Positions 34,536 through 51,092 of a stretch of 55,660 bases of DNA are shown here, one piece after another. Each line of letters starts with the position of its first letter. The stretch's first letter is position 1. The notes below the pieces were generated by a model. It worked only from the letters and a program-made list of their open reading frames with translations, did not search any database and was not told where the DNA came from. A program made the translations under genes and the position numbers. Source of the DNA: an uncultured Lachnospiraceae bacterium (GTDB taxonomy: Bacteria; Bacillota; Clostridia; Lachnospirales; Lachnospiraceae); NCBI GenBank assembly GCA_947384285.1, contig CANDGI010000019.1, positions 1 to 55,660 of the forward strand. The letters are read 5' to 3'.

Positions 34536-35288
34536 TTATTGTAAACTACTCAGCATATATTTCAGCGCCTCATCCGAAAAAATTTCTTTTTCCCCAAAAT
34601 ACATCACATGCCGTCCTCTGATATGTTCTTTTTTCAATTGCCAGTGTGCAAGGGCAATGTCCGCCTCCTCCAGCATAGAAACATCAAATCTGCTGTCCCC
34701 TGCGGCCATTGTGATTCCAGCCCTTATTTTATGCCGGAACCGCCTTAGTGCCACCCCTTTACTAAGTTGTTTGGGTACAACATAGATTTTTGCCCCATTG
34801 GAAAGCACATCTACCTGGCTCTCTCCCAAATGCTTATGCAGCCTTTGAATTGTTTCTTCTGGCTTTGCGCTTTTGGTAAAGAGAAAAAGCTGTTCAATGT
34901 TTCTAACCTCAAATATAATATTTCTGCTGGTTCTTAAAAGCTCTTCTGCCTGAACTAAGTCCTCCTGGCAATTGGAAATCAGTCTCCTTGACTCCTCATA
35001 CCAGCCTTTGTCAATTTCTCCATGATGCAAAAGTATGCCTCCGTTGCACACTAAGGCGTATTCCGGCGGCTTTTTCCCCAGCTGGATTCTCTGATATTGT
35101 TCTATGGTTCTGGTGGTTGTGGGAACAAACAAGACTTGCTGCTGTATCTTTTGCAGCAGCTCCCAGGAACAATTTGTCATATTAGAAATTTCTCTGCCCT
35201 GATAAATTTCCACGCATCTTTTATCCGGGCCGATTTCATGTTTATAGGAGTAAATCAATGTGTTGTCCAAATCTGAATGAAATACCAT
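34536..35288 (-). CDS. HAD-family hydrolase of the Ter locus
   Basis: 250 residues. Motif I is FHSDLDNTLIYS at residues 3-14, with nucleophile Asp6 and Asp8. Motif II is VPTTTRTIEQY at about 55-65, and motif IV is MAAGDSRFDVSML at about 194-206. A Cof/sucrose-phosphatase-type cap lies between. It probably dephosphorylates a small phosphorylated metabolite. HAD enzymes of this type are recurrent members of the biosynthetic part of Ter stress systems, and here it is the last gene downstream of the TerD/P-ATPase unit. AAAGGATAAAACC sets the start. Confidence 0.85.
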   Translation of the reverse strand: MVFHSDLDNTLIYSYKHEIGPDKRCVEIYQGREISNMTNCSWELLQKIQQQVLFVPTTTRTIEQYQRIQLGKKPPEYALVCNGGILLHHGEIDKGWYEESRRLISNCQEDLVQAEELLRTSRNIIFEVRNIEQLFLFTKSAKPEETIQRLHKHLGESQVDVLSNGAKIYVVPKQLSKGVALRRFRHKIRAGITMAAGDSRFDVSMLEEADIALAHWQLKKEHIRGRHVMYFGEKEIFSDEALKYMLSSLQ

Positions 35289-35431
35289 GGTTTTATCCTT
35301 TGTTGTCCAGCATGAGGGGACGGGGAAATTTCCCTGTGTGCTGAAACACTTCCCCTCATAGGCTGGATATCATTTTACGCAGGAAATTGTTTGTAAGCGC
35401 CTGGCAAGCTGCACAATCCTTTTCCAGTTCC

Positions 35432-38086
35432 TTACCTTTCTACCACTGTTTTCCGCACCAAATCTACCGGAATCATAGTGGCTGCAAGCAAGACCACTGC
35501 AATCCAGCCTGTAATCCCAAAAGGCACACAGCTAAACATATTCCCAATCCAGGTAAATGCTGTGAAGGGCACCAGCGCCGCATTTACAATCACTGCCTGC
35601 ACCAGGATAATGGCAAAGAACACCTTAAGGAATCCGGTATTTTCATTCAATCCCTTAAAAATGCCGTATTTCTCATCTCGGACATTAAAACCGTTAAACA
35701 AGGCGCTTACAATAAACAGCACAAAATAGCCTGTCAGATGCTGTTCCTCTGTTTCAAAGAGGTTTACAAAAAATGGGAGCTTCAAGTACAAGAAACTAAT
35801 GCACACCAGCCATGCCCCCATGGTAACAATCTGCGCCATCATCTTTTTGCTTACAATGCTTTCATCCCTTCTTCTGGGCTTCTCATCCATATACTTCTTT
35901 AAGGCCGGCTCATTTCCAAGCATAATGGCTCCTAAGCCGTCCATCACCAGATTAACAAACAAAAGATGGGTTACCTTCAAAGGCTCCTCCACCCCGAAAA
36001 ATGGAGCAATCGCACTTACCACCACCGCTGCCACGTTTATCACCAACTGGAACTTACAGAATTTCAGGATGTTATGGTAAATGGTTCTTCCATACCAGAT
36101 GGCATCCTTGATGGACTTAAAGTTATCATCTAAAATAACAATCTTGCCCGCTTCCTTGGCGGCTTCCGTACCGCTGCCCATGGCAAATCCTACATCTGCC
36201 CGCTTCAATGCCGGGGAATCGTTGACGCCGTCTCCGGTCATGCCTACCACCAGATTCATTTCCTGGCACAGGCGCACCATTCTGGATTTATCTGTAGGAA
36301 GCGCCCTTGCAATCACCCGGATATTGGGGATGATTTTCTTTAGCTCTTCATCCGGCATTTCGTTTAACTGTACAGAAGAAAGGGCTCGGTCTGATTCATT
36401 TTTCAAAAGCCCCGCGTCTTTTGCAATAGCCACTGCGGTCTCCAGCCGGTCCCCGGTAATCATGACTACCTGGATTCCCGCATGCTGCACCAGTTCAATG
36501 GCTTCCCTGGCCTCGGGCCTTACATCATCCCGGATTCCAACCAACCCGATAATCACAATGTCCTCATTGATTTTATTTTCCACCAGCTCTTGTTCCGAAT
36601 AGCCGAAGGCAAGTACACGCATCGCCTTTTCTGCCAGCTCATCAATTTTACGGTCTAAGGCAGCTTTATCAATGTCCCTGATTTCCCCGTTTCCATCCAG
36701 GTATTGTACTGCAGAAGCTAACAGCCGCTCCGGCGCGCCTTTGTAAAAGGTTTTTCCCTCGCTGTCAAGCCTTGCCTGGCTGAACTTATTGGTGGAATTG
36801 AAGCCCTGGGCTTTTGAAACCACACAGCTTTTGTCCGATTCCAACGCACGGAAGGTTTCTTCCCCGATAAATTTCATCATGGCCTGGTCGGTAGCATTTC
36901 CGCCGATTACCCGGTGCTCCCCGTCAAACATGGACTGGGTGTTTTTCCCGATTGCCAAATCCAGCAGCCGTTTTACCTTCCCATGGCTGCCTAGTTCTGG
37001 AATCGGGATGGAAGCTCCATCTGCCGTAAAGAAATCTACCACTTCCAGGCTTCCCTTGGTAATCGTCCCTGTCTTATCGCTGAATAAAATGTTCAAAGAC
37101 CCTGCGGTCTCGATACCCTCTGCCTTCCGCACCAATACATTGTGGTCTAACATCTTGCTGGTATTCTGCATCAGCACCAGGGAAATCATCAAAGGAAGGC
37201 CCTCCGGCACTGCACAGACGATAATGACTACCGCAAGGGAAACTGCATTTACGATATCCTTAATGACCGTCTCAAATCCTGTGGAAAAATATGCGGATAC
37301 TCCGCCAGCAGAAACAATAAAAAATGCAAAATACAAAACTGCTATCACAACAGCTCCGATATAGCCAAAGGTGGAAATCTGCTTTGCAAGCTTTGCAAGC
37401 TTTACTTTCAGCGGAGAATCCGGCTCATCCTCCTGCATTTCCTCTGCCATCTTGCCCATCATGGTTTTCAGGCCCACTTTCCGCACATCCAGTACGCCTT
37501 CTCCGTCAAAAACCACTGCTCCGCGGAACAAGGAGTAGGAGTCCACGAAGGTATCCCCTGTAATATCCTCTGCAAGAGAAGTGTCCACAGAAGTTTCTTT
37601 CTTTTTACACTCCTCTGCCTCTCCATTCAATGCAGAGTTATCTACGCTGAGCGCACCGGAAATAAGGATTCCGTCTGCAGGAATTTTATCCCCTGACTGG
37701 AGAAGCACCTTATCTCCCACCACAACATCGTCCACATCAATGACGGTAACCATGCTGTTCCGGTGGACCTTGCACTGGTCTTTTTTCGTGCTGTCCTTTA
37801 ACTCCCGGTACTTGGTATCGCTGGCAACCCCGGTTTTTGCGGATACAAAAGCCACAATCAAAACAGCTGCAATTGTACCCAGGGGTTCATAAATCTCTGC
37901 ATACCCAAAGAAAAACATCACAATCATAAGAGCCGCTATGGCCAGCAGAATCTTAATCATGGGGTCTCCAAAAGTTTCCTTAAATTCTTCCCAAAATGTG
38001 GTAGGCTCCGAATCTGGAATCTCATTGGATCCGTATTTCCCTCTGGAAGCTTCTACTTCTTTATCTGTAAGTCCCTGAAATTTCAT
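35432..38086 (-). CDS. Calcium-transporting P-type ATPase
   Basis: 884 residues, the length of bacterial P2-type Ca2+ pumps. Phosphorylated Asp337 is in ILFSDKTGTITK; the ion-site PEGLP in the fourth helix lies at 294-298; hinge motif is GMTGDGVNDSPALK; LVMDGLGAIML in a late helix supports Ca2+ coordination. The actuator loop usually reading TGES is NGEA at 154-157, keeping the glutamate. AAGGAGATATAGA sets ATG 38086. It starts 11 bp after the diverged TerD gene, which fits with calcium-binding TerD proteins and Ca2+ pumps found together in Ter loci. Confidence 0.93.
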   Translation of the reverse strand: MKFQGLTDKEVEASRGKYGSNEIPDSEPTTFWEEFKETFGDPMIKILLAIAALMIVMFFFGYAEIYEPLGTIAAVLIVAFVSAKTGVASDTKYRELKDSTKKDQCKVHRNSMVTVIDVDDVVVGDKVLLQSGDKIPADGILISGALSVDNSALNGEAEECKKKETSVDTSLAEDITGDTFVDSYSLFRGAVVFDGEGVLDVRKVGLKTMMGKMAEEMQEDEPDSPLKVKLAKLAKQISTFGYIGAVVIAVLYFAFFIVSAGGVSAYFSTGFETVIKDIVNAVSLAVVIIVCAVPEGLPLMISLVLMQNTSKMLDHNVLVRKAEGIETAGSLNILFSDKTGTITKGSLEVVDFFTADGASIPIPELGSHGKVKRLLDLAIGKNTQSMFDGEHRVIGGNATDQAMMKFIGEETFRALESDKSCVVSKAQGFNSTNKFSQARLDSEGKTFYKGAPERLLASAVQYLDGNGEIRDIDKAALDRKIDELAEKAMRVLAFGYSEQELVENKINEDIVIIGLVGIRDDVRPEAREAIELVQHAGIQVVMITGDRLETAVAIAKDAGLLKNESDRALSSVQLNEMPDEELKKIIPNIRVIARALPTDKSRMVRLCQEMNLVVGMTGDGVNDSPALKRADVGFAMGSGTEAAKEAGKIVILDDNFKSIKDAIWYGRTIYHNILKFCKFQLVINVAAVVVSAIAPFFGVEEPLKVTHLLFVNLVMDGLGAIMLGNEPALKKYMDEKPRRRDESIVSKKMMAQIVTMGAWLVCISFLYLKLPFFVNLFETEEQHLTGYFVLFIVSALFNGFNVRDEKYGIFKGLNENTGFLKVFFAIILVQAVIVNAALVPFTAFTWIGNMFSCVPFGITGWIAVVLLAATMIPVDLVRKTVVER

Positions 38087-38097
38087 TCTATATCTCC

Positions 38098-38688
38098 TTA
38101 TACATATCTGTTTGCTAATTCGCCGATGCTCCGGTCGCTGGTTCCCTGCCCGATGGCATTGAACTTCCATTCTCCATTGCGGCGGTACACCTCGCCGAAA
38201 ATCATGGCCGTCATTCCAGAATAGTCTTCTGTCAAATTATATTTGCACATTTCATTGTTATTCCTGCCATCCACCAGGCGGATAAAGGCATTCTGGATCA
38301 TCCCGAAATGCTGCCTTCTCTCCACTGCCTGGTAAATATTCACTACAATCACAATCCGGTCATACTGAGCCGGCACCTGAGCCAAATCTACTGCAATCTG
38401 CTCATCATCTCCGTCCCCAGCCCCGGTCAGGTTGTCTCCCATGTGGAAAACAGCATTGGAATCATGGCGTAAATTGCCGAAAAATACCAGATCCTCTTTC
38501 CTTCTCAATTTGCCGTCACATAACAGCAGAGCCGAAGCATCACAGTCTATTTCCTGGGGCTTTGGTGCAAAAAGCCCCCGTCTCTTGCGCTGCACTTCAT
38601 CCCAGCCTAACCCTATCATAATCTTGGAAAGGCCTGCATTTTCTTTGGACAGGTTGACTTTCTGCCCTTTTTGTAAGCTGATTGACAT
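38098..38688 (-). CDS. Diverged TerD-family protein
   Basis: 196 residues. It is the last of three tandem TerD paralogues. The N-terminal MSISLQKGQKVNLSKENAGL and the loop NLTGAGDGDDEQIAVDL match TerD. The first acidic calcium segment, [11 protein letters not shown] in the paralogues, is here EIDCDASALLL, preceded by a basic insert QRKRRGLFAPK; the C-terminus is also different. It may have weaker or altered calcium binding. GTAGAGGAGGAATAAA sets the start, two bases after the previous stop. TerD proteins act in stress resistance to tellurite, phage and cell-envelope damage. Confidence 0.9.
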   Translation of the reverse strand: MSISLQKGQKVNLSKENAGLSKIMIGLGWDEVQRKRRGLFAPKPQEIDCDASALLLCDGKLRRKEDLVFFGNLRHDSNAVFHMGDNLTGAGDGDDEQIAVDLAQVPAQYDRIVIVVNIYQAVERRQHFGMIQNAFIRLVDGRNNNEMCKYNLTEDYSGMTAMIFGEVYRRNGEWKFNAIGQGTSDRSIGELANRYV

Positions 38689-38689
38689 T

Positions 38690-39277
38690 TTATTCCTCCT
38701 CTACATCCACGCCGTAGTTGGCGCAGAGGGCTGCCAGGCCTCCTTGGTAGCCGCTGCCTATGGCGTTGAATTTCCACTCGTTTCCATTTTTGTACAGTTC
38801 GCCGAATACCGCTGCGGTCTCAATGGAGAAGTCCTCTCCCAGGTCGTACCGCAGCAGCTCTTCCCCGGTATCCTCCTTGTAAATGCGGATGAAGGAATTG
38901 TTCACCTGCCCAAAGTTCTGGCGCCGTTTTTCTGCTTCATAAATAGTCACCGTAAATGCAATCTTGGTGATATCAGCCGGAACCATGGACAAATCCACTT
39001 TAATCTGCTCATCATCCCCTTCGCCGGCTCCGGTACGGTTATCCCCCATATGCTGGGCGCAGCCGGACGGATGCTGCAGATTCCCGTAAAACACAAAATC
39101 CTCAGAACGTGACACCTTCCCTGTGTCCGTTAACAAAAATGCTGCTGTATCCAGGTCGAAATCTCCTCCTGTATCAAAGGCATTCACGTCCCATCCCAAT
39201 CCTACTACAATTTTTGACAATCCTGGGTTATCCTTGGTAAGGCTTACCTTCTGGCCTTTCTGTAAATTTATCGGCAT
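38690..39277 (-). CDS. terD: TerD-family calcium-binding stress protein
   Basis: 195 residues. The TerD fold with both calcium segments: [13 protein letters not shown] at about residues 37-49 and [17 protein letters not shown] at about 84-100. It starts [20 protein letters not shown]. The closest neighbour is the TerD at 39373-39954, so a tandem duplication is likely. AAAAAAGGAGG precedes the start. It probably forms a membrane-associated complex with the TelA-like and YceG proteins encoded upstream. Confidence 0.95.
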
Positions 39278-39372
39278 ATGTTTCTAGACCTCCTTTTTTG
39301 CTATATGAATTTTCACCTGGGACAGCTTATCCTTTGGAAATTGCTGCCCCGGCTCTAACAAACGCACATTTC

Positions 39373-39954
39373 TTAAGCTACCTCGATTCCATAATGTCCG
39401 CACAATGCCGCAAGCCCTCCCTGGAACCCGCTTCCTATGGCATTAAACTTCCACTCCCCATTATGGCGGTACAGCTCCCCTACCACCACCGCAGTCTCAA
39501 TGGAAAAATCTTCCCCCAAATCATACCGTATCAATTCCTGCCCGGTATTTTCATCCACAATCCGGATAAAGGAATTGGACACCTGCCCAAAGTTCTGGCG
39601 CCTCACATCGGAATCGTATATAGTTACTGTAAATGCAATCTTTTCTACATTGGAGGGAATCAGGCCAAGGTCAATCTGAATCTGCTCATCATCCCCTTCG
39701 CCTTCCCCGGTCAGGTTATCCCCCATATGCTTGACGGCGCCGCTTGCATGTTCCAGATTCCCATAAAAAATAAATTCCTTTTCCGTCGGGCACCTTCCAT
39801 TGGAACCTAGCAGAAAGGCCGCTGCATCCAAATCAAAATCTGCGCCGGAATCAAATGCATTCACATCCCATCCCAAGCCTACCATAATATTTTTCAAGCT
39901 GGGATTTCCCTTGGTCAAATCAACTTTCTGTCCTTTGGTCAAATTAATAGGCAT
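39373..39954 (-). CDS. terD: TerD-family calcium-binding stress protein
   Basis: 193 residues. [13 protein letters not shown] at about 37-49 and [17 protein letters not shown] at about 84-100 are the calcium segments. The second ATG at 39954 is preferred because AAAGGAGG lies at optimal distance; an ATG two codons earlier (39960) is too close. It is 21 bp after the TelA-like gene and 95 bp before the next TerD. The three TerD copies match the yceC/yceD/yceE trio of Bacillus. Confidence 0.95.
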
Positions 39955-39975
39955 ATACATATCCTCCTTTATCCC

Positions 39976-41127
39976 TTAATATTTTTTCTCTGGCATATGG
40001 TACATTCTGTTAAACTCTGTCTTAATATTCTCAAGCCTTGCCTGATCCTGTACTCTCTGCTGCCTTGCATTCTGCTGAATCTGCCTAGTCTCATCAATGC
40101 CGTTTACAATTGTCCTCCAGGTCGTCTCCAATGTCTCAATCTTGATGGAGCTTCCGGAAGCCAGCCGCGCTGTCATCTTAGACTGCTCCACGGTATTCCT
40201 TGCATTCTTTAACAGCATCTCATTGGTCTTTTCATCCAGCGCAGACATGGCTTCTGCCTGAATCTTCTGGCGTTTGAGCATAATCGCCTGCGCCAATGCC
40301 TGCTTAAATACCGGAAGGGTGATGATGAAGGCAGAGTTGATCTTCCTCACCAGGTTCATATTGCTGAATTCCATGGTCTTAATCATGGGAATGGACTGCA
40401 TAGCCACGCTTTCTGCCGTCCGAAGATCCTGGGTTCTCTGCTCGAGCATCATCAACGCCTGCTGCAGGCTTTGGATTTCAAACTGGATCGAATTATCCCC
40501 GGAAGCCTCCATGTCCGCCTGCCGCTTTGCAATGTAATCCTCCAATTCCCGGCAGCCCTGTTCTCCAGCCAGGATATATTTGACCAGCTCATGGTAATAA
40601 TTCACATTTGCCTCAAACATCTGCTCTAATTTGCGGTTGGACTGCTTGATTTCCGATTCATACTGCTTTAACTGCACATAAATCTTGTCCACTTCTTCTC
40701 CCATAGTATGATACTTGGCAAGAATTTTATCCAGCTGCTTCCTGAGATTGCCAAACATTTTTCCAAACAGCCCAGGATTTTCCTTTAATTCCTCAAGGTC
40801 AAACTTGGACATGACTTTCGCCAGCGTATTGAGCATCTCGCTGGAATCGTCAAGCTGGGACATATTCATGCTGTTTAACACTACATCCGAGGCCTTGGAA
40901 ATCTCCTCTGCCGCCTCTGCCCCAAAGGACACAATCGTTTCCAGGTTATACACCTCTATGGTACTGGCAAGGGCATCCACCTCTGCAGAATTCGTCAACG
41001 TGTCGTTCATCTGCTGGCGGTCTGCCACAATATCATACTGCTCCACCACCTCAATCTCATGTTTCGTTTCCGGCACTGCCTGCTGCGGCTGCACCGCTGT
41101 TTTGCTAAAATCAAGTCCCATATGCAT
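39976..41127 (-). CDS. TelA-like toxic anion resistance protein
   Basis: 383 residues, mostly alpha-helical with long coiled-coil stretches (about 90-260), consistent with the TelA family (YceH in Bacillus). It starts near MGLDFSK and ends with RMYHMPEKKY. Family members give tellurite and other toxic-anion resistance and are tied to the cell envelope. AGAGAGGTAGTTG precedes ATG 41127, which shares its A with the stop of yceG (TGATG), so the two are translationally coupled. The order yceG, telA-like, TerD, TerD, TerD is a rearranged yce operon. Confidence 0.93.
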   Translation of the reverse strand: MHMGLDFSKTAVQPQQAVPETKHEIEVVEQYDIVADRQQMNDTLTNSAEVDALASTIEVYNLETIVSFGAEAAEEISKASDVVLNSMNMSQLDDSSEMLNTLAKVMSKFDLEELKENPGLFGKMFGNLRKQLDKILAKYHTMGEEVDKIYVQLKQYESEIKQSNRKLEQMFEANVNYYHELVKYILAGEQGCRELEDYIAKRQADMEASGDNSIQFEIQSLQQALMMLEQRTQDLRTAESVAMQSIPMIKTMEFSNMNLVRKINSAFIITLPVFKQALAQAIMLKRQKIQAEAMSALDEKTNEMLLKNARNTVEQSKMTARLASGSSIKIETLETTWRTIVNGIDETRQIQQNARQQRVQDQARLENIKTEFNRMYHMPEKKY

Positions 41128-43400
41128 CAACTACCTCTCTTAAAAATTTTATCGCGCCATGACTGACGTGGATGAGATGAAATCCTACCAAAATCCGGCG
41201 TCTGTAAATCATACATGTATCCGCCAATCTGGTGCTCTTCCATTCGCTTCTTATTCAAATGCCTTTCTATATTCTGATACCCGGTGGGAATAAAAAATAA
41301 AACATCAAACCCGGCCAGATTTAAAAAAGCCGTTAGAATCGTGTCCTCCAAAGACATCCATTCTTCTGTGGTATTAATATAGATAAACTTAGGATTTTTC
41401 CTGGTAAAATCAAACTTCTGCATCATCCTTAGCAGCTCTTTTTTCATATTGAGGATAACCGCTGTTATGGTATACTCCATGCCGTTTTCAAAGGTTCCCC
41501 GGATGATTTTCTGGTCAATCAACAGCTGCAGCTTATCTAAAATATGCTCCTGTATCTCTTCCCGCAGGAAGCCGTACTGGTAACTGGAATGGCTTTTGAT
41601 CTTCCCCCGCTGCAATTTCCCATTCTTAAAAAACTCTGTCACATAAGGCTTTACCGGGTTAGGTTCCATGGAATTGATGCAGGGAACCGCCGCTGCCACA
41701 AAGGTATCCTCCGTCATCAGCCTTTTTATGCCGCTCCAGTATTCCAAAGCCCCCTCCTTAACCCCGGAAACCTTTGCATAGATAACCGGAACATTCACAA
41801 CCCCTTCTACCGTGCTGAAATTAGGCCTGTATTTTAATTCCTGATCCCAGAGGATTTCAATCTCCTCATACATAGTCTGCAAGGTGACCGCATTGGCTTT
41901 TTCATACTGCTGGCTCCGGTAAAGCCCCGAGTCCTGGTACATGAGCGCATCCAATTCCCGCTCGGCATGGTAAGCCGCCGTCCCCATCCGTATCTCCGAA
42001 TTTTCCTGGGGAAACCTTTCCACTGCCATGGATTCCGGGAAATTCATTTCATAAAGCATCTTATCTTCCAGGCAGCATTTTCCATTCAAGCTGGGAACTA
42101 AAATCAGCACGTCCACCGGAAGCCTGGCCAAAAACCGCAGGAACATGGCCTCGTTTTCTGTTTTACATCCCCCCAGATAAATAAAACAGCCGATATCCGG
42201 CATCTTCCAATTGGAAAACAGTCCCGGCTGATACCGTTTCATCCAGCAGAGCAGGTAGACCGCCTTGCTGGTAAGCTTATTTAAGTTCCTTCCCGGAAGC
42301 TCTGCTTCCTCCAGCATCACATCGAGAAAGGATTTCCGCATGATCCTCTCCAGCTCTGGATTCGCCGGATACCTGATATTATTTGCAGCCAAATCGGCCA
42401 GCATCTGTTCCTGCTCTGTGTAATTTTTCCTAGCTACGCCGCTGATTTCTTCCATAGCTGGCGCTGGGATGGACTGCTCCGCAATCACAACCTTCCGCCC
42501 ACTGTTTTTCAGTTCCAGCTGAAATTGATAGAGCTCATTCAGGTATGCCAGCTTATCCTCCACGCCGTTTATCCTGTAAAAGCAGTTGTAAAAAAGGTTT
42601 GGATCGTCCCCCCTCGCCCGGATTCCTGTCGTGAAATCCGAAAGTCCCTTGCCCGAAATCCAGGCATTGGTACAATTCAAAACCTGGGGCATTTTCCCAT
42701 AGAGACGTTCCCGGTCCTGCTCCCTCTTCATTTCCTCCTGAAACAGTCCAAGGTGAAAGTTTTCAGGAAAAGGAACCATATTCTCCTCTTTCCACGCAAA
42801 AGAAATTTCAGAAGCCTTATCCAGTTTTTCATACGCTGCATCTCCATGATATTGAAGAAGCACAATATCGCAGCCTGCACGGGAAAGGACTGCCATCAGC
42901 TTCAATTCATAATTTCCAATGTCGCCTTCGTACAGTATTTTTGGAATATGCTGCTGCCCCAGCTGGTTCACCACACGCTCAAACTTATAATAAAGCCAGC
43001 ACATAAATTTAATGTAAGCATTTTTCAGTATATTCTCATTCTTTCCTGCCCTGCGCATCCCATCCAAAGTATCATAAATAGCCAGGGACACCTGTTCCCT
43101 CTGGTAAGCCCCCATCCTGGGCAGCCATTTTTTCAGGCTGCCAGAAATAAACCCCACGTTCATGGTGAAATCCATTCCCATAATCTCCCCATAATACGCC
43201 AGGTGTTTTTCTAAAGGATTGGGAATCCTGCCCTCAATCACAATGCCGGATCTTCTTGCCGCTTCGTAATATCTGCGGATAAAATCATGGATTTCCTGAT
43301 TGTATCCTGTAATCCGGTAAAAAAATACCCCCTGCTCTTTCCGGCTCCCCGGTTCCAGAAAATAGTCATTTAGATTCTGAATTCTTTTCTGTTCAAACAT
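41127..43400 (-). CDS. yceG: YceG-family component of the Ter biosynthetic module, enlarged
   Basis: 757 residues; Bacillus YceG is nearer 540. The PF14266-type protein has no known activity. Two similar segments are visible: HIPKILYEGD ... AGCDIVLLQYHGDA near residue 155-195, and NPKFIYINTT ... AGFDVLFFIPTG near residue 685-725. Each is a strand-helix-strand unit ending in a hydrophobic strand. Long helical stretches lie between. Its first 215 residues align with the N-terminus of the protease fusion at 44411-45976. It is expected to be cytosolic and to work with TelA and TerD proteins. The ribosome site is weak. Confidence 0.85.
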   Translation of the reverse strand: MFEQKRIQNLNDYFLEPGSRKEQGVFFYRITGYNQEIHDFIRRYYEAARRSGIVIEGRIPNPLEKHLAYYGEIMGMDFTMNVGFISGSLKKWLPRMGAYQREQVSLAIYDTLDGMRRAGKNENILKNAYIKFMCWLYYKFERVVNQLGQQHIPKILYEGDIGNYELKLMAVLSRAGCDIVLLQYHGDAAYEKLDKASEISFAWKEENMVPFPENFHLGLFQEEMKREQDRERLYGKMPQVLNCTNAWISGKGLSDFTTGIRARGDDPNLFYNCFYRINGVEDKLAYLNELYQFQLELKNSGRKVVIAEQSIPAPAMEEISGVARKNYTEQEQMLADLAANNIRYPANPELERIMRKSFLDVMLEEAELPGRNLNKLTSKAVYLLCWMKRYQPGLFSNWKMPDIGCFIYLGGCKTENEAMFLRFLARLPVDVLILVPSLNGKCCLEDKMLYEMNFPESMAVERFPQENSEIRMGTAAYHAERELDALMYQDSGLYRSQQYEKANAVTLQTMYEEIEILWDQELKYRPNFSTVEGVVNVPVIYAKVSGVKEGALEYWSGIKRLMTEDTFVAAAVPCINSMEPNPVKPYVTEFFKNGKLQRGKIKSHSSYQYGFLREEIQEHILDKLQLLIDQKIIRGTFENGMEYTITAVILNMKKELLRMMQKFDFTRKNPKFIYINTTEEWMSLEDTILTAFLNLAGFDVLFFIPTGYQNIERHLNKKRMEEHQIGGYMYDLQTPDFGRISSHPRQSWRDKIFKRGS

Positions 43401-43418
43401 ATACTTTTATAATCACCT

Positions 43419-44006
43419 TTAATATCTGTTCATCTTGTTTTTGTTCATCACATATCCAAGGGCAGCGCCCACAACACCGCCTAAAATATGGGTCAGGTTG
43501 GATATATTGTCCCGCACAAAGATTCCGTCGTAGACCTGCTGCCCGATATAGATTACCGCCACCAGAATAAAGGTCAGCGGAATCTCCCCTTCTTTCATAC
43601 AGGTGAAGGAGGACAGGAGAATCAATGCAAAAACCACGCCGCTGGCTCCTAAAAGCCCCACCCCTGGGAAAAATATAAAATGAACCAATCCTGTCGTGAG
43701 TGCAGTTGCCAGTATCACAAACAATAGATTGGACGATCCGTATTTTTCTTCCAGCAAAGGCCCTACAACCAGAATCAATGTAACATTCCCAAAAAAATGA
43801 TTCCATCCCGCATGGCCAAGCACATGCCCAAAAAACCTTACATAGGTCATTGGGCTTAGCAGGGAAGAACGGTATACGGTGAAAAATGCCTGGTTGGTGA
43901 AACCACGGGTAATAAAATTCAATATCATTACGAGGAAACACAGAATGGTAAAGCTTAAGATTACCGGTGAATTAAAAGACACTTTCAGCTTTCTGTTTAC
44001 AGACAT
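43419..44006 (-). CDS. Rhomboid-family intramembrane serine protease
   Basis: 195 residues, six to seven membrane segments. The catalytic serine is Ser122 in GLLGASGVVFAL, and the general base is His173 in NLTHILGG. HAGWNHFFGN at about 65-74 is the conserved HxxxNH-like oxyanion region. ATG 44006 is preferred (GGAG nine bases upstream); in-frame ATGs at 44012 and 44021 are possible. It is 18 bp upstream of yceG and so belongs to the Ter unit. It may cut a membrane substrate to start or release a stress signal; the substrate is not identified. Confidence 0.9.
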   Translation of the reverse strand: MSVNRKLKVSFNSPVILSFTILCFLVMILNFITRGFTNQAFFTVYRSSLLSPMTYVRFFGHVLGHAGWNHFFGNVTLILVVGPLLEEKYGSSNLLFVILATALTTGLVHFIFFPGVGLLGASGVVFALILLSSFTCMKEGEIPLTFILVAVIYIGQQVYDGIFVRDNISNLTHILGGVVGAALGYVMNKNKMNRY

Positions 44007-44150
44007 AGACATTCTCTCCATTTCACATTATTTCCTATTATATAGTTTCTTAGCTATTATTTCAATGTGTTTGTGGAATTACTTTATAATTTATTCTTTC
44101 CTGTATCTTTTTTCTTGTCATAATTCACTGCGGATACGGACGGAAATGCC

Positions 44151-44217
44151 GGCTGGCTCTTTCACACACAAACCAGGCAGCGTTCCAGCGAACCAACTGC
44201 TTAGCAAAAGAGCCATC
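44151..44217. repeat. Hairpin repeat, family C copy 2
   Basis: GGCTGGCTCTTT at the left and AAAGAGCCATC at the right frame a core that shares ACAC, CAAA, GCGTT and AACTGC in the same order with 19775-19834, with a seven-base insert. The arms can form a stem. It sits in the 404-bp gap 44007-44410, which holds no gene. A perfect palindrome TGATACGTATCA at 44402-44413 overlaps the stop codon of the protease fusion; flanking GGGATT/AATCCC suggest a terminator for it. Confidence 0.65.
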
Positions 44218-44410
44218 AACGAAATGGAATTGCCATTGAGTAAAAGGATAAAATGTAGGAAGGACGTTAGGAGATGCAAAGATTCGATGATGCATCTTTA
44301 GGAATGGTACACATCGGCAGGAAAGAACACATTCTTATGAAATACAAACGGGGAATATTTTGTGGGTTGATTGTAACGGCAGGTTCTTTCCAAGGGATTT
44401 CTGATACGTA

Positions 44411-45976
44411 TCAAACCAGGAATCCCCGGATAAAATTCCCTATGTACTCATACCCCACCGCCAGATTGATATTCTGCCCATTGTCAAAACCCGCGGTGCT
44501 GATTCCGATAACTTCCCCGTACATATTCAGCACTGCCCCGCCAGAGCTGCCGTTGGAAATGGGCGCGGTGAACTGAATCATGCTGACATCCTCTATCATG
44601 CGGAATCCTGAGATAATCCCATCCGACACAGAGTTAAACAGCCCCAGAGGGCTTCCAATGGCAACTACCCGCTGCCCCCGCACAAGCTTTCGCTCCCCCT
44701 TATAAATAGGAAGGGGCTGCAGCTTTCTGTCAATCCGTATGACGGCAAGGTCTAACACAGAATTGTATTTAATCATCTCATCGGTCCGGTAAACCCTTTC
44801 ATCCTCTTCTATCCTTACAGAATAACTCCTTCCCCGGCAAGCCACATGGTTATTGGTCAGAATGTAACCTGCACTTCCAATCATAATCCCGGAACCGCCG
44901 CCAATGATGTCTCCCCTGCCATCATGTATCATAATCTGCACCACAGAAGAAGCCAGCACGGCTAACTCCTCATACGTCAGCTCCCTTCTGCCAGCCTGCG
45001 GATGCTGCCGGCCTGCTTCCTGATATCCCCCTGCCCGTTCTTTCCCGGTGCTTGGCATATTGCTCCTGGCCGCTGTTTCTTTATGAGCCTGGAAATTCTG
45101 GTTTCCTGGTATTGTCCTGTTATTTCTGGAAAGCATTTGCTGCGTCCTCCGGTCGCGCTCCGGCACCCTTGTATTGACAAGAATACGCGCTGTTTCTTCC
45201 TTTCTGCTGGATGCCGGATTCCCACGATCAGGATACCTTGCCGGTATTCCCGTATTGGCCAAAACACGCGCTGCACCTTCCTTTCTCCCGGCATGCCTTT
45301 CAGGCATATATTCTGGAATCTTATACACACCCGGGTTTGCCGTTATAGACTTCTGGGACAGTCCCAGCTTGTCTAATTCCGGCGGAATATCCTGCCCTGT
45401 CTGCAAAAGAAGCACATCAAACCCAAGCAGCGTCAAAAGATAACAGAACAAATACTCCTGCTGTCTGGATACGTCCGCACACACAACCTTCCTGGAACAC
45501 TCCGGCTCCCATGCCTGTAAAGCAGCCGCTGCCGTCTGATCCAGCCAGAAGAGAATCTTTACCACAAAGTTCTTCTCTATGGACGGATTCATCCCTGGCT
45601 TTGCCTTCGCAAAGATTCCCAAGACCTTCTGGCAGGCCGTGCCAAGCGCCTGGCATACTTGCTGGTTTTTCCCGGTTGATTTCACAGAAGCGCAGGTTTT
45701 CCCACTGTTCACCCAGCTTTCATAACAGCCCGAATAAAAATCCACATCCTCCATAGCCGCCAGCCGGGGAAGGCTGTTACATCTATAATAAAATCCCCTT
45801 CCGCTTTTCATCTGCGCTGTAAGCGTCCGGTCCATAGCTTCTATCTGCCCTAATGTTCCCTGATTGATCCCCACAATCCTTAAAAAATATACATCCTTAC
45901 AGCCGTTAACATAGCCGCCTTTTGTATTCATAAATCCTTCCACGGAGCTCTTCTTAAAATTATCATGATTAGCCAT
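44411..45976 (-). CDS. YceG-N-like domain fused to trypsin-like serine protease
   Basis: 521 residues. Residues 1-215 resemble the start of YceG: VYFLRIVGINQG matches VFFYRITGYNQE and GFDVLLLQTG matches GCDIVLLQYHG. A disordered linker (215-330) has a duplicated RKExxARxLxNTxxPxR motif. Residues 335-521 are an HtrA-type protease: His377 in LTNNHVAC, Asp409 in NSVLDLAVI, Ser478 in SNGSSGGAV. No signal peptide or PDZ domain is seen, so location is uncertain; the first 215 residues suggest docking to the Ter complex in the cytoplasm. It has its own promoter with a palindrome. Confidence 0.85.
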   Translation of the reverse strand: MANHDNFKKSSVEGFMNTKGGYVNGCKDVYFLRIVGINQGTLGQIEAMDRTLTAQMKSGRGFYYRCNSLPRLAAMEDVDFYSGCYESWVNSGKTCASVKSTGKNQQVCQALGTACQKVLGIFAKAKPGMNPSIEKNFVVKILFWLDQTAAAALQAWEPECSRKVVCADVSRQQEYLFCYLLTLLGFDVLLLQTGQDIPPELDKLGLSQKSITANPGVYKIPEYMPERHAGRKEGAARVLANTGIPARYPDRGNPASSRKEETARILVNTRVPERDRRTQQMLSRNNRTIPGNQNFQAHKETAARSNMPSTGKERAGGYQEAGRQHPQAGRRELTYEELAVLASSVVQIMIHDGRGDIIGGGSGIMIGSAGYILTNNHVACRGRSYSVRIEEDERVYRTDEMIKYNSVLDLAVIRIDRKLQPLPIYKGERKLVRGQRVVAIGSPLGLFNSVSDGIISGFRMIEDVSMIQFTAPISNGSSGGAVLNMYGEVIGISTAGFDNGQNINLAVGYEYIGNFIRGFLV

Positions 45977-46036
45977 AATAGTACCGTTGCTTTCTGAATT
46001 CTTATTTTAAGTACACTGTAATGTAAATAAGTAGAA

Positions 46037-46073
46037 AAGTCAATATTATCTTCATCTAATATAATATTGACTT
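46037..46073. promoter_or_regulatory. Inverted repeat over the protease-fusion promoter
   Basis: AAGTCAATATTAT (46037-46049) and ATAATATTGACTT (46061-46073) are perfect 13-bp arms with an 11-bp spacer. On the minus strand the arm nearer the gene contains TTGACT, which with TACAGT 17 bp downstream forms a possible promoter for the gene starting at 45976. The repeat is a good candidate operator. Confidence 0.5.
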
Positions 46074-46185
46074 AGATAAGGAAACAAAATAATATATATA
46101 CAAGATAATTTTTTGTCCCGAAATAACTCACCTGTAGTCTGCAGGATTTTTCTTCTACAGTGGGAAGTATGATGAAATCGCGCAG

Positions 46186-46640
46186 GTGGAGGGATTTGAA
46201 CAAGTTACCTCCACCCAGATAGAAATCAGCGGTTTTTTCCAGGGGCGGGCGTACGGCAGCATTTCCGTTGAAGAGCCGAATGCCATCTGCCCGGCAGGGC
46301 GGCTGCAAAATGTATGGAATCAATCGGCACAGAATTGCGATATAACGTTCCAGTTGCAGTGGCGCTTGCGCTGTTTTTGCTTTTCGAAGCTGATGAATAG
46401 GTTATCTTCCAAGAAGAGGAGCAAACATTTGTTGAAACAGATGATTTGGGAAAACAGATGCCCGTATCCATGTGCCTGACGGATGTAAGCGGAATGCGGC
46501 AGCAGGGGCTTCGGATTCAGGAAAAGACAGTGGATAAGCTTGGGCAGCTGGATATCGAGGATAAAGTACTGACAGCGGAAAGCTGCGGGAATGTAAGCCT
46601 TGGCAGCCAGGATAACCTTAATCCTGGCTCCTGCCCATGA
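46186..46640 (+). pseudogene. Broken coding sequence, unknown family
   Basis: Plus-strand reading frames here look protein-like but are interrupted. One open segment runs from 46186 (FEQVTSTQIEISGFFQG) and a second in another frame from an ATG at 46314 carries a membrane-like stretch (VPVAVALALFLLFEADE) ending in TAG at 46398-46400. The same frame continues in a sensible sequence (FQEEEQTFVETDDLGKQM) to 46640. One frameshift and one stop would explain it. I cannot name the family. A hairpin AGCCAGGAT/ATCCTGGCT lies at 46605-46629. This fills the gap between the protease fusion and the Dph6-like gene. Confidence 0.4.
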
Positions 46641-46737
46641 AAGGCTGTGATAGAGGCTTTCTGCCTGCACAATCGGAAAAATAGGCAATGCAGGATTTGT
46701 CAGTTTTTTTCTACAGCCCTTAAACAAATCCAGGCAT

Positions 46738-47379
46738 TTATCTAATATCCGCAGCCGCATAATCCCCCATTTCAATATTATCACCGATTTGAAAAACCAA
46801 AGGTTCCCGAAACACCGGTCCATCCACGGCAAGGGTATGATATTCTCCATTCTCCCCGCAAATATCAATGCCCGCCGACTTCATGGTTAAAATGGCTGTT
46901 TCGTCCAGAAATGTTCCCAAAAGCTCCATTGGCAAAACCGTCCGGTTGACACTTTTGATCAGGCATTTATAGCCAAGCCGGATTAGTTCATACACAATCT
47001 TCTCCCGGCTCTGCTGCCACAACGGAAAGCAAGGGATCAGCCCGGCAGCCTTGCAGCGTTCTTCTTCCCACTTCCGGTTCTGTTCTATATCAATATCGCC
47101 AAAACAGACTGCTTCGGCACCTATAGTTTTTGCTTTCAAAAGCCCTGTCTCAAAAGCTGTCTGGTAGGTTGCACCTTCTGCCGGGCAGGTTATCACAGGA
47201 AGAGCCAGGGCCTCCCCATAGCGTTCCAGCATTGTGCTGTCTGCGCCATGGAAATAGGAACGGCCAGCGTCCTCCTTTACCATAACAACCAGACACACAG
47301 GTTCATGCCCCTGCTCCAGCATTTTGTGGAGAGCCAGGGTACTGTCTTTTCCGCAGCTGTATGACATAGCAAATTTCAT
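46738..47379 (-). CDS. Dph6-like ATP pyrophosphatase (diphthine-ammonia ligase family)
   Basis: 213 residues. The PP-loop SYSCGKDSTLALHKML at residues 5-20 is the ATP-pyrophosphatase signature, and EAVCFGDIDIEQNRKWEEERC (in parts: FGDIDIEQNRKW) and GENGEYHTLAVDGP are the Dph6/ydiI-like motifs. In eukaryotes Dph6 amidates diphthine; bacteria lack that target, so the bacterial substrate is unknown. The enzyme would adenylate a carboxyl group and add an amine. AGGAGGTTTTTT sets ATG 47379, which overlaps the stop of the small upstream ORF as ATGA. It lies inside the Ter locus. Confidence 0.88.
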   Translation of the reverse strand: MKFAMSYSCGKDSTLALHKMLEQGHEPVCLVVMVKEDAGRSYFHGADSTMLERYGEALALPVITCPAEGATYQTAFETGLLKAKTIGAEAVCFGDIDIEQNRKWEEERCKAAGLIPCFPLWQQSREKIVYELIRLGYKCLIKSVNRTVLPMELLGTFLDETAILTMKSAGIDICGENGEYHTLAVDGPVFREPLVFQIGDNIEMGDYAAADIR

Positions 47380-47573
47380 AAAAAACCTCCTGCCTGTTCT
47401 ATCACTTTGCAATATACCTGCCCCCTGTCATCTTCTGGAATTTTCATTGCTGCCATTACCTGTTCTGCTGTCCATTTCGTAGTATCCATCAGATTTTTAA
47501 TTGTTTTAAGCAATGTTTCCTGTTCCTTTTTCTCAAAATCTTCCTTCATAAGCTCTTTCAATGCTTCACGCAT
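47376..47573 (-). CDS. Small protein, possible C-terminal remnant of an Rpn-like nuclease
   Basis: 65 residues, helical and charged. TLLKTIKNLMDTTKWTAEQ and VMAAMKIPEDDRGQY-like endings resemble the helical tail of the PD-(D/E)XK (Rpn/YhgA-like) transposase-associated proteins, but the catalytic domain is absent. The stop overlaps the start of the Dph6-like gene, so translation could be coupled. GGAGG is 12 bases upstream of the ATG, rather far. It may be a real small protein or a decayed end. Confidence 0.5.
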   Translation of the reverse strand: MREALKELMKEDFEKKEQETLLKTIKNLMDTTKWTAEQVMAAMKIPEDDRGQVYCKVIEQAGGFL

Positions 47574-47731
47574 AACTTTGCCGCACCTCCTTATGGCCTC
47601 ATAAATCTCTTTTCTGGAAAAATTCTTATTGCAGGATGAAATGTCTAATGTTATGATTACTAGGAAGCTAAAACTTCCATAACTTGCTATATGTTAAAAT
47701 ATGAAATTTATCATAACAGGAGTATTTTCCA

Positions 47732-48691
47732 ATGAACCTTTCTCTCCCCGCTTACAGCGTTGGCGCGCTGCTCTACTGCCCTGCCAACAATGAAAACATT
47801 GTAAATTCACTGGCCAGCGAAAAATTCGGCAGACATTTTTCGCTGGCATTATGCTTAGAGGACACTATACAGGACAATTGTGTAGCCCAAGCAGAAGAAA
47901 AGCTGGCTGCTTCCCTGAAGGCCTTGCATATGCACCAGGCAGACAAACCATTTTTCCTGCCCAGACTATTTATCCGTGTAAGAAATCCCGGCCAGATTGA
48001 AAGGCTGCTGGACAGGCTTGGGGATGCGGGAACCCTTGTCACAGGCTTTAACATCCCCAAATTTTCCCTGGAAAATGCAGATGCCTATATTCAGGTGATT
48101 CAAACAATCAACCAGCATAAAGATATCCCTTATTATATGATGCCGATTTTAGAAAGCCCTGACCTGATTCATCTGGAACACAGGGCGCATCTTCTGTATG
48201 CCCTTAAGGAAAAATTAGACAGCATTTCCCAATATGTGCTGAATATCCGGGTGGGCGGCAACGATTTGTGCCATATGTTTGGCTTCCGCAGGCACAGCAG
48301 CGAATCCATTTACAAAATCCGGCCTGTCGCCAATATATTTTCCGACATTATCACCGTATTCGGCATGGACTATGTGGTTTCCGGCCCTGTCTGGGAATAT
48401 TACAACGGAAGAAATTGGGAAACCGGGCTGAGAAAAGAATTGAGCGACGACAGGCTGTGCGGCTTTATCGGAAAAACCGTAATCCACCCAAAACAGATTG
48501 CACTGGTAAATGAAGCTTATCAGGTGCCGCTGAAAGACTATAATGATGCGGCCTCCATCTTGAATTGGGATAAAGCTTCCCCCTCCCTCGTAGCTGGAAG
48601 CATTCGAAAGGAGCGGATGAACGAGTACAAAACCCATTACAACTGGGCTTTGCGCACGCTGCTTCTGGCACAAGCATACGGATTGAAATGA
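47732..48691 (+). CDS. HpcH/HpaI-CitE-like aldolase of the Ter locus
   Basis: 319 residues. The citrate-lyase-beta/HpcH-HpaI barrel shows LCLEDTIQDN (about residues 44-53), RLFIRVRNPGQ, MMPILESPDLI, LNIRVGGNDL and the C-terminal GFIGKTVIHPKQIALVNEA (in parts). It probably makes or breaks a carbon-carbon bond of a 2-oxoacid or acyl-CoA-like compound. This family recurs in Ter biosynthetic modules with PRTase and StiP genes, as here: it faces the StiP gene convergently with 12 bp between the stops. Ribosome site ACAGGAG. It is the only plus-strand gene in the locus. Confidence 0.87.
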   Translation: MNLSLPAYSVGALLYCPANNENIVNSLASEKFGRHFSLALCLEDTIQDNCVAQAEEKLAASLKALHMHQADKPFFLPRLFIRVRNPGQIERLLDRLGDAGTLVTGFNIPKFSLENADAYIQVIQTINQHKDIPYYMMPILESPDLIHLEHRAHLLYALKEKLDSISQYVLNIRVGGNDLCHMFGFRRHSSESIYKIRPVANIFSDIITVFGMDYVVSGPVWEYYNGRNWETGLRKELSDDRLCGFIGKTVIHPKQIALVNEAYQVPLKDYNDAASILNWDKASPSLVAGSIRKERMNEYKTHYNWALRTLLLAQAYGLK

Positions 48692-48703
48692 TATATACAA
48701 AGC

Positions 48704-49861
48704 CTATGCATCCGAAAGTTTTTGAATCAGTCCGCAGGATTTGTAATGTTCCAGCGGATAGTATGCCACAGGGACATTTTTTTCCTCTGCCAGGCGAAAG
48801 ATATGCGCCAGGGACTTATCATCCTTACAATCCTGGCGAATCAGAACCTTCCATGGGACACGCCGCAGCAAAACCCTGGTAGTCTCGCCAATCCCCGGCT
48901 TTACCAGGTTGATATCCGATATGCCAAATTCCCGGGCAATCCCCTGCACCTCCTCCATACCCGTTTTGGTATCCATCCCCTCTGCCTCTGCTTCCTCATT
49001 TTTAGTTTCTGCCCCCTCCGCTCTATCCTTCTCTTCCTTTAATCCTGCCTCCTCTGCTCCTCCTGCCTTTTTGGCCAACGGTTCCATTACCTGAGTATCC
49101 CTGTAGAATTCAAAGTTTTTCTCAATGGCTTCAATAAAGGCATAGGATAAATCCGCATCCTTCATTTCCCCATAATAAACTGCACCGTGAAAATCATCTT
49201 TTCCAATGATATCCTGCCGCAGGAACGTCCTGCTGACCAGCCCGGATACGGTACAATTCAAGCAGGAGCTTGGGATCAGGATATCCTCATGGGTTCCGCA
49301 TAATTCCGTTACATTTGCCGGGTCTGCCAGCACCGCAAGATCCGCTGATACCCCGGGATAATCTGACGCCGCTTTTTCCAATTCCCCTAGAATTGCCCCT
49401 TTCCCAATCCAGCCATCCACAAAAAGCAGATCCTCCCCTTTATGTTTATCCAAAAGATACTTCACTGCATTTTTGTCAATGCCTCTGCCCCGGATAATCG
49501 AAATAGAATAATGCTCTACGGTAAGATGATATTTCCGGGCAATATACCGTTTCAGCAAAATCCCAACAGGAGTCCCTGCCCTTGCCAGTGAGACAAGCAC
49601 CACATGTTCTCCCTTTTTCTGCATGATTTTATCTGCCAGCGCCCCCACCGCCAGCGCAGTTGGCTTGGCGTAATTTTTCAAGGCCTCCTGATATACTTCC
49701 ATATATTTTTCACTTGGCACATATTCTATGGGAAGCATTTCGCAGTAATGGCGTCCGGCCTGTATCTCCCTCTCCCGTTCCTCCGTGGATTGGGGCTTTA
49801 CCAGCCCTGTAATATCTTTTAACAGGAAAATCACATCACTTTCCCAATAAGAGCTTCTCAT
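48704..49861 (-). CDS. StiP-family protein with C-terminal PELOTA-like RNA-binding domain
   Basis: 385 residues. Residues 1-250 are a StiP-type (cysteine-protease-annotated) domain: MRSSYWESDVIFLLKDI at the start, VSLARAGTPVGILLKRY at about 107-123, SIIRGRGIDKN and FVDGWIGKGAI. A low-complexity Glu/Ala/Gly-rich linker spans about 260-305 (AEGAETKNEEAEAEG). The last 80 residues (TTRVLLRRVPWKVLIRQD ... NVPVAYYPLEHYKSCGLI) match the PELOTA/L7Ae RNA-binding fold described for Ter loci. ATG 49861 (GGTGGTGTGAGG upstream) overlaps the PRTase stop by 26 bases, so the two are coupled. Confidence 0.85.
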   Translation of the reverse strand: MRSSYWESDVIFLLKDITGLVKPQSTEEREREIQAGRHYCEMLPIEYVPSEKYMEVYQEALKNYAKPTALAVGALADKIMQKKGEHVVLVSLARAGTPVGILLKRYIARKYHLTVEHYSISIIRGRGIDKNAVKYLLDKHKGEDLLFVDGWIGKGAILGELEKAASDYPGVSADLAVLADPANVTELCGTHEDILIPSSCLNCTVSGLVSRTFLRQDIIGKDDFHGAVYYGEMKDADLSYAFIEAIEKNFEFYRDTQVMEPLAKKAGGAEEAGLKEEKDRAEGAETKNEEAEAEGMDTKTGMEEVQGIAREFGISDINLVKPGIGETTRVLLRRVPWKVLIRQDCKDDKSLAHIFRLAEEKNVPVAYYPLEHYKSCGLIQKLSDA

Positions 49862-51092
49862 CCTCACACCACCTAACCAAGTAAATTTTCTCATTGCCGC
49901 ATTGTGCAAGGGCATGGCACAAAGAAGCCGCCCCCAGCTCTTTCCCCGGCCTAGAGCATGTTTGAAAAATGCTTTCTGGCAGATGGGCATGATTTTTCAA
50001 ACACGCATTAGCATCTGTGAGAATCAAAACGGCATCATAGGATGCTAAATCATACAGATACGTGGTCCGGCCATCCTCATATAAGCTCACCAGCTCATAC
50101 CGCTCATGCAGCGGGTACTTTGGATTTCTGCTGACCAAAATGGGGCTTCTTGTGGTGGCATGGAATTTCACATCATTTCCCAAATCCTGTATCTTTTTGG
50201 CTGCAAACAGCGGTGGGTACATGAACTCCTCTGTGCCAAGGACAAGGATATTCCTGCCCACGCCAAAGGAAATCCTTGCCGCCATCTCCCGCCATAGCTT
50301 CTCGCAGGCGGCCTGGTAACCCACACCTCCATGGAGCCTTCTGGCATTGATGTACCCGGAAACTGCAAATTCCTCAACTCCTGGCAAATCAGCAATGCTG
50401 CTGTGAAAATCTCCGCCTTCCACAGCAGGATGGCCATGCGGCCCGCCGGACGGAAGGCTGGGCATGATGGCCTGTTTACTATAATAAACTCCATCATCAG
50501 AACATTTCTCTGCAATCTGCGGATACTCACTGTGGTCTGTCTTTATAAGGTAAACCAGGTCAATCTGTTCTTCCCGGTATCTTTCCTGAGCCTTTTCATC
50601 CATCCCATTCAACAGGGATGCCACAGAAAAACGCAGCTTTTTTCCATAGGCCTGCTGAATCAAATGGACAATGCTGCCAATGGTATTTCCCGTAGTTACC
50701 TCATCCTCCACAAAAACAATCCTATCTATCCTTTCAATGACAGCATCCAAATCATCTTTTACCAATTTCTGCTCTGTTGCGTGGCTGTGGGATTCTGAAA
50801 AATAGAAATACTCCACACCTTCTGCCATTTCTCTGGTGGTCTGCATATAATCTGCGCCAAGCTGTATGGCTAACGTCTCGCCGATTGCAGTTGCAGTCTC
50901 CGCAAACCCAATCAGCAGCAGGGTTTCTTTCTGATACCGCTTGGCAACGGCTTCTGCCAGCCCCGAAAACATTTTAAAGGGCAGATCAGGAGCTATCGGC
51001 ACATGCTTTCCCTGGTATTTATTGACAACCAGGTAATTTCGTTTTGTATTGTTGTCCCTTTTGGCAATTCCTATGATTTCCTCTGTATACAT
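49836..51092 (-). CDS. Ter-type phosphoribosyltransferase with TRSP domain
   Basis: 418 residues. The PRPP loop VFVEDEVTTGNT lies at about 126-137. The C-terminal domain bears the diagnostic TRSP tetrapeptide (HATTRSPILV, about 311-320). Such enzymes are proposed to attach ribose-phosphate to a base-like compound in Ter biosynthetic modules. Residues 204-225 (Tyr to Glu, with LPSGGPHGHPAVE) are encoded by a 66-bp dispersed repeat, exactly 22 codons, between the two domains. TTTTTGGAGGAGGTTC sets ATG 51092; the frame is open to 51146. The gene leads the StiP gene. Confidence 0.9.
   Translation of the reverse strand: MYTEEIIGIAKRDNNTKRNYLVVNKYQGKHVPIAPDLPFKMFSGLAEAVAKRYQKETLLLIGFAETATAIGETLAIQLGADYMQTTREMAEGVEYFYFSESHSHATEQKLVKDDLDAVIERIDRIVFVEDEVTTGNTIGSIVHLIQQAYGKKLRFSVASLLNGMDEKAQERYREEQIDLVYLIKTDHSEYPQIAEKCSDDGVYYSKQAIMPSLPSGGPHGHPAVEGGDFHSSIADLPGVEEFAVSGYINARRLHGGVGYQAACEKLWREMAARISFGVGRNILVLGTEEFMYPPLFAAKKIQDLGNDVKFHATTRSPILVSRNPKYPLHERYELVSLYEDGRTTYLYDLASYDAVLILTDANACLKNHAHLPESIFQTCSRPGKELGAASLCHALAQCGNEKIYLVRWCEDEKLLLGK
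50418..50483. repeat. 66-bp dispersed repeat (family B), copy inside the PRTase gene
   Basis: It matches 30293-30358 at 54 of 66 positions without gaps. It starts and ends on codon boundaries of the PRTase gene (codons 204-225), so it adds 22 residues and keeps the frame. The insertion site is the hinge between the phosphoribosyltransferase and TRSP domains. Confidence 0.7.

Follow-up and report, generated by a model that had tools for sequence, protein, structure and literature searches.

A YceG-type domain fused to a trypsin-like protease in a Ter-type locus of a Lachnospiraceae bacterium suggests a proteolytic output

Ter systems occur in gut bacteria, plasmids, and phages, and their mode of action is still open. 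Their nucleoside-type biosynthetic cassette consists of PRTase-TRSP, PELOTA/StiP, C-C lyase, and HAD proteins, with an ATP-grasp enzyme that is typical without being universal. One overview, in its outline of the components, combines signal-making PRTase and HAD enzymes with the ligand-binding proteins TerB and TerD, the membrane protein TerC, and TelA beneath the membrane (PMC7824862), and another, in its passage on the membrane complex, states that it is unclear how this complex is tied to the biosynthetic cluster (PMC8115787). In Bacillus subtilis, yceC-yceH are a single unit controlled by sigma W, B, and M, which are envelope-stress sigma factors (PMC3498285); in C. difficile, metronidazole raises TerD synthesis (PMC6262375); and telA is listed among lantibiotic resistance genes (PMC10877564). 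Here, we analyse a predicted Ter-type locus in a window of 55,660 nucleotides, which is an entire contig (C19, CANDGI010000019.1) of the draft genome of an uncultured Lachnospiraceae bacterium (3.23 Mb, 74 contigs, 83% complete). The nearest named relative is Lachnospiraceae bacterium 3-1, with TerD, TelA, and ATPase 95-97% identical. The locus encodes, in a single frame, a YceG-type domain followed by a trypsin-like protease (hereafter, the fusion). Our results suggest that the Ter cluster of Lachnospiraceae-related gut bacteria often carries a protease fused to one of its own domains, so that the system can act by intracellular protein cleavage.

The distribution of the fusion was studied in a sample of 299 genomes of the family, including the one analysed here, with the fusion counted at E <= 1e-40. 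It was identified in 15 genomes, YceG_bac in 28, and TRSP in 21, and the 15 carriers are all among the 28 genomes with YceG (hypergeometric p 5e-18). Each carrier has a YceG match outside the frame of the fusion itself (just a fragment at a contig start in G076), and the two genes are at most ~1.1 kb apart in 12 of the 15. The remaining three (G076, G162, and G240) are drafts of ~170-400 contigs in which they lie on different contigs. The sampled species share history, and the p-values therefore overstate the independence of these observations. In this sample, no genome without YceG has the fusion. A sequence-only reading of the window had assigned the protease to the system and asked if it occurs as often without Ter genes; this was not observed, and the assignment stands.

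A scan of genome contigs provided 21 loci, of which 20 carry the fusion (L010-L029) and one was counted as trypsin only (L030). L026 comes from Petralouisia muris NM01_1-7b, which is culturable and harmless. The genes in view in the 20 named loci include YceG (14), PRTase-TRSP (13), StiP (13), the lyase (14), a rhomboid (9), and a Dph6-like gene (1). The lyase is on the strand opposite to the fusion in all 14 loci showing it, and the fusion is often placed between the cassette and the core of the locus. The evolutionary distances between fusions correlate with those of YceG (0.93), TelA (0.92), the ATPase (0.94), HAD (0.94), the lyase (0.91), and StiP (0.77), values that are not corrected for species history. 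A search of 398 genomes of the phylum matched 27 at E <= 1e-30, mostly by the protease part only, and revealed two fusion carriers besides the window. In one of them, from another family of the phylum (G627), the fusion flanks a Ter locus (HAD-ATPase-TerD-TelA-YceG) on the HAD side and in the opposite orientation, and the lyase lies at the other extreme. The fusion had no match in plasmids at E <= 1e-20, and the 19 pattern matches in viral contigs included no relative. The YceG protein matches three records of a phage collection, two of which (L122, MT836648.1; L123, MT838549.1) are unannotated UNVERIFIED "Bacteriophage sp." faecal scaffolds with Ter genes. L122 holds cassette and core, the longer of the two scaffolds lacks the fusion, and both are probably bacterial DNA.

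The fusion has a YceG-type domain (residues ~9-198), a variable linker (~201-330), and an HtrA-like serine protease domain (~331-521). We aligned 20 fusions, from the window and 19 loci (L028, cut at the contig end, was omitted). The catalytic residues H377, D409, and S478 are identical in all 20 rows. The profile of this alignment matches residues 7-189 of YceG (172 columns, probability 91%, E 9e-7), indicating that the N-terminal domain is a diverged first unit of YceG; a distant copy of the fusion (G454) scores 85 bits against YceG_bac over residues 36-252. The mean pairwise identity of the protease is 80%, that of the N-terminal domain 44%, and that of the linker 28%. That the protease is so much more conserved than the N-terminal domain is suggestive of a constant substrate and a partner that varies in step. 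No single Pfam, NCBIfam, or PADLOC model among those scanned covers the whole architecture.

In a wider pattern scan, the active serine lies in a GSSGGA motif in all 33 distinct fusion frames listed, one of which (L043) lacks the N-terminal domain in its frame. The trypsin frames of L030 and L115 have GNSGGA instead. The latter (L115:1441-1908) is another trypsin-like gene, in a genome without the fusion (G185), separated by ~0.8 kb from the match to the Ca2+ ATPase in the Ter core. Eight other trypsin frames examined from the phylum search (L087-L093, L097) have, by eye, a signal-peptide-like start and no YceG domain. A FastTree phylogeny of 53 protease domains, which leaves out L028 (contig end), L096 and L073 (without a frame that fits the search pattern), and the copy in the window, groups the 35 fusion proteases together with a local support of 0.745. 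A single origin of the fusion is thus likely, if weakly supported.

Hydropathy profiles of the 20 fusions gave no signal peptide and no membrane helix: the highest 19-residue value is 1.89, against 2.56 for the rhomboid. Because of this, the fusion is probably a cytosolic HtrA-like protease. This resemblance bears on the possibility that the fusion, with the rhomboid where present, clears damaged or wrongly metallated proteins under stress in the absence of any signalling, the YceG domain doing no more than position the protease. The protease part does score 100.1 bits with TIGR02037, below the cut-off of 416.2, and among the 60 listed of the 104 matches to PDB sequences at E <= 0.01 (the best being RsgI9), most are DegP, DegQ, DegS, and HtrA. 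Also, YqgP, a rhomboid of B. subtilis, acts under manganese/zinc stress by cleaving a metal transporter, according to the portion of PMC7231995 that treats it. Yet Pfam identifies no PDZ domain in the fusion, and the high conservation of the protease part would suit a single substrate better than bulk clearance. We regard such a role in quality control as unlikely, if the best placed of the alternatives.

We favour, tentatively and with a probability of about 0.45, the reading that an assembly of YceG, TelA, and TerD has its proteolytic output in the fusion, which is held there by its YceG domain. The system would then have three layers. The YceG/TelA/TerD assembly would form a core against the inner side of the membrane, and the Ca2+ P-type ATPase would act in the membrane in place of TerC. 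The cassette (PRTase-TRSP, StiP-PELOTA, the HpcH-like lyase, and HAD) would make a nucleoside- or nucleotide-like compound. The cytosolic HtrA-like protease would dock on the assembly via its YceG-type domain, and metal or envelope stress sensed at the assembly would turn it on a specific protein. The description of the locus in the sequence-only reading, a surveillance device with proteolytic output, is plausible in these terms. A protease that carries a domain of the Ter system itself would be a concrete and assayable output, whose substrate would reveal what the system protects or switches, and the soluble fusion offers a handle on the YceG domain, through which a partner or ligand could be found.

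Several observations weigh against this reading. Thirteen of the 28 genomes with YceG have no fusion (seven of them have TRSP), and the system therefore functions in its absence. In six of the 20 named loci, core and fusion are not adjacent. YceG is found elsewhere in five of these six genomes, ~10 kb away on the same contig (L010, L015) or on another contig (L016, L017, L025), whereas the draft of L020 has no YceG besides the fusion itself. The second carrier of the phylum search, G454, shows no Ter gene match in the 19 kb around the fusion (~9 kb either way) and has its YceG on another contig. The distance correlation with TerD paralogue a is low (0.50, species history again uncorrected). 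The YceG profile has no match among PDB sequences at E <= 1. Finally, among the genomes with YceG, TRSP is present in 13 and absent in 2 with the fusion, versus 7 and 6 without it. A dependence of the fusion on the TRSP cassette is thus suggestive and not significant (p 0.096), and we did not retain it.

This last comparison also tells against a more direct coupling, in which a nucleoside- or nucleotide-like messenger made by the cassette, once bound to the fusion's YceG-type domain, directly switches the protease on. The frequent position of the fusion between cassette and core is in line with such gating, as are the 13 of 15 fusion genomes with TRSP (on the same contig in 10 of the 13) and the interpretation of Ter systems as signal makers plus ligand-binding domains in the overview cited above (PMC7824862, same outline). 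Against it, two genomes have the fusion without a TRSP match (G162, 97% complete in ~210 contigs; G240, 89% in ~400), ligand binding by YceG is purely hypothetical, and the match to PADLOC models is limited to the protease part (RT-Protease_XI, 54 bits). We consider this gating improbable, slightly more so than a role in quality control. A metabolite-signalled proteolytic switch, where the messenger would be read by YceG-type domains in general and the fusion would be the effector cleaving a cytosolic target, seems less probable again; if true, the Ter network would have a defined output, and YceG would function as a messenger receptor. Docking of the fusion on the YceG/TelA/TerD assembly remains our preferred reading.

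The window contains TerD, TelA, and a cassette of PRTase-TRSP, StiP/PELOTA, C-C lyase, and HAD, all confirmed by Pfam, which bears out the earlier proposal of a Ter-type system with a nucleoside-type cassette. It had further been remarked that ATP-grasp genes are not visible. Indeed, no Ter-type ATP-grasp was found in the window or in the 83% complete draft, whose two ATPgrasp_Ter matches sit in frames of 1129 and 1081 residues, a size that points to carbamoyl phosphate synthase. This absence is not special to the locus, since Ter-type ATP-grasps above 120 bits were identified in 5 of 29 genomes and in 4 of the 13 with both fusion and TRSP. In L025, the ATP-grasp lies inside the cassette. Weaker matches (41-66 bits, frames of 332-568 residues), none of them near the cassette, occur in six genomes (G029, G176, G253, G185, G003, and G088). 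The ATP-grasp is an optional part of such loci.

StiP is labelled a cysteine protease in Pfam, and the locus may hence hold three proteases. Its residues C199, H37, H116, and H224 are invariant in 14 of 14 aligned rows. A profile of StiP matches only L7Ae-type proteins in the PDB, within the PELOTA part. We dropped the idea, raised by motifs seen by eye, that StiP is a PRTase-fold protein, for which the profile comparison gave a probability of 2%.

Two proteases had been proposed as additions to the system. The fusion has kept this place and the case of the rhomboid is weakened, as it is found in 10 of the 20 named loci overall and, among 18 further regions with YceG, adjoins that gene in 7 (in G268, the match is in two pieces). 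All 10 copies examined have the GASG and HxxGxxxG motifs. We regard the rhomboid as an optional helper.

The proposal that the Dph6-like enzyme is a component of the system was rejected. The gene is present in 2 of the 28 genomes with YceG and in none of 29 others (57 in total), once unlinked, on another contig, and the Fisher test (0.24) gives no sign of an association with YceG. Among the 20 named loci, it was found in L010, at 84% identity and ~3.7 kb from the fusion. Its protein scores 100.5 bits with the equivalog model TIGR03679, below the cut-off of 197.3. The guanine plus cytosine content at third codon positions (0.50) is within the range of the neighbours (0.45-0.62), thus giving no sign of a recent foreign origin. 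The gap between the fusion and the Dph6-like gene (45977-46737) contains 136 bases that are 78% identical to a section of a 155-residue frame in L010, which points to a shared old insertion that has since changed. We judge the gene to be a passenger. Its rarity, like the irregular presence of the rhomboid to some extent, is what one would expect if the proteases and the Dph6-like gene were merely neighbours of Ter genes. For the set as a whole, this explanation is very improbable, given the co-occurrence of the fusion with YceG and their proximity.

The 13 genes of the locus span positions 34536-51146 (open reading frame list and Pfam; Table 1), and all their Pfam matches exceed the curated cut-offs. 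The gene set described earlier, from HAD to PRTase-TRSP in about 16.5 kb and nearly all on one strand, is thereby verified: 12 of the 13 genes are on the minus strand, the exception being the HpcH-like lyase. The frames of TelA and YceG overlap by 4 bases and those of StiP-PELOTA and PRTase-TRSP overlap too, an operon-like arrangement. The listed frame of the Ca2+ ATPase reaches 38170, and we chose an internal start at 38095; that of PRTase-TRSP begins with TTG at 51146. In YceG, no further Pfam family is matched at E <= 10. The window contains neither a tRNA nor an Rfam match.

Table 1. Genes of the predicted Ter-type locus, with their positions in the window.
Gene	Positions	Strand	Evidence and remarks
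HAD-type phosphatase	34536..35288	-	Hydrolase_3 41.5 bits, S6PP 30.2 bits
Ca2+ P-type ATPase, PMCA-type	35432..38095	-	Pfam; TIGR01517 553.4 bits (cut-off 507)
TerD paralogue c	38098..38688	-	PF02342 256.9 bits
TerD paralogue b	38690..39277	-	PF02342 277.7 bits
TerD paralogue a	39373..39960	-	PF02342 283 bits
TelA	39976..41130	-	PF05816 346.9 bits
YceG with three YceG_bac stretches	41127..43400	-	PF14266 451.3 bits
Rhomboid protease, 200 residues	43419..44021	-	PF01694 73.1 bits; optional member
YceG-N/trypsin fusion	44411..45976	-	YceG_bac 38.6 bits (residues 102-194) and Trypsin_2 90.8 bits, single frame
Dph6-like PP-loop ATPase (SCGKDS), Diphthami_syn_2	46738..47412	-	PF01902 130 bits; judged a passenger
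HpcH-like C-C bond lyase (C-C_Bond_Lyase; HpcH/HpaI gene of the sequence-only reading)	47732..48691	+	PF15617 324.6 bits
StiP-PELOTA protein	48704..49858	-	StiP PF11202 345.8 bits, PELOTA_1 PF15608 106.3 bits
PRTase-TRSP protein, EDEVTTGNT motif	49836..51101	-	PRTase_2 PF15609 139.3 bits, TRSP PF12500 79.2 bits

The core of YceG, TelA, TerD, and ATPase recurs in regions from 19 genomes of the family, across which the lyase, rhomboid, fusion, and ATP-grasp are variable; in G185, core and cassette are far apart. Beyond the three TerD genes of the window (257-283 bits), the draft genome has no TerD match. TerC was matched in none of 50 genomes of the family, this one included, and in 9 of 14 control genomes. 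Hence, the Ca2+ P-type ATPase probably takes the membrane place of TerC here, and the locus, in which TerC is missing, is not classed as a terZABCDEF-type Ter operon. A gene of the AIM24 family is repeatedly present within or close to Ter loci (L025:2628-4123, L027:15086-18026, L104, L108, and L121), beside an extra divergent TerD gene in the first four, and is possibly a further optional module. Next to the PRTase-TRSP gene are a split transketolase (two genes) and a transaldolase (51485-53991), which could supply pentose phosphate towards phosphoribosyl pyrophosphate. Both transketolase genes are near the cassette in five of the 20 named loci (L011, L012, L013, L021, and L026), four of which also have the transaldolase. 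The contig ends with an AbiEii-type nucleotidyltransferase gene (54821-55645; Pfam 84.9 bits, PADLOC 348 bits).

Compared with the systems described so far, we rate the locus as a variant: Ter loci with YceG, TelA, and TerD are already known, and the architecture of the fusion appears new. We came across no description of a fusion of YceG to trypsin in the literature searched, which did not cover the 2012 study of Anantharaman, Iyer, and Aravind, where it may be mentioned. The enterobacterial ter locus (terZABCDEF with the terXYW cluster) likewise places Ter genes next to a putative biosynthetic cluster that includes a HAD, as given in the locus description of PMC8115787. Relative to it, the window lacks TerC, its draft genome has no Ter-type ATP-grasp, and YceG, the Ca2+ ATPase, the rhomboid, and the YceG-trypsin protein are added. 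The B. subtilis yceC-yceH unit resembles the window in that TerD and YceG_bac are matched in the B. subtilis control genome; it differs in that TerC is matched there as well, as opposed to none of the 50 family genomes, and TRSP is not. YqgP of B. subtilis also places a rhomboid in a metal-stress setting (PMC7231995, same portion), whereas the rhomboid of the window has only 200 residues and is not constant in the locus. The NTP (nucleoside triphosphate)-dependent conflict systems that bear trypsin, as presented in the relevant section of PMC7159879, also join a trypsin-like peptidase to recruiting or sensing domains. Their partner genes differ, and Pfam identified none of these systems in the locus. 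Finally, HtrA, DegP, and DegS share with the fusion a catalytic domain with the H-D-S triad. Unlike them, the fusion has, by Pfam and hydropathy, no PDZ domain, signal peptide, or anchor, and carries a YceG-type domain instead.

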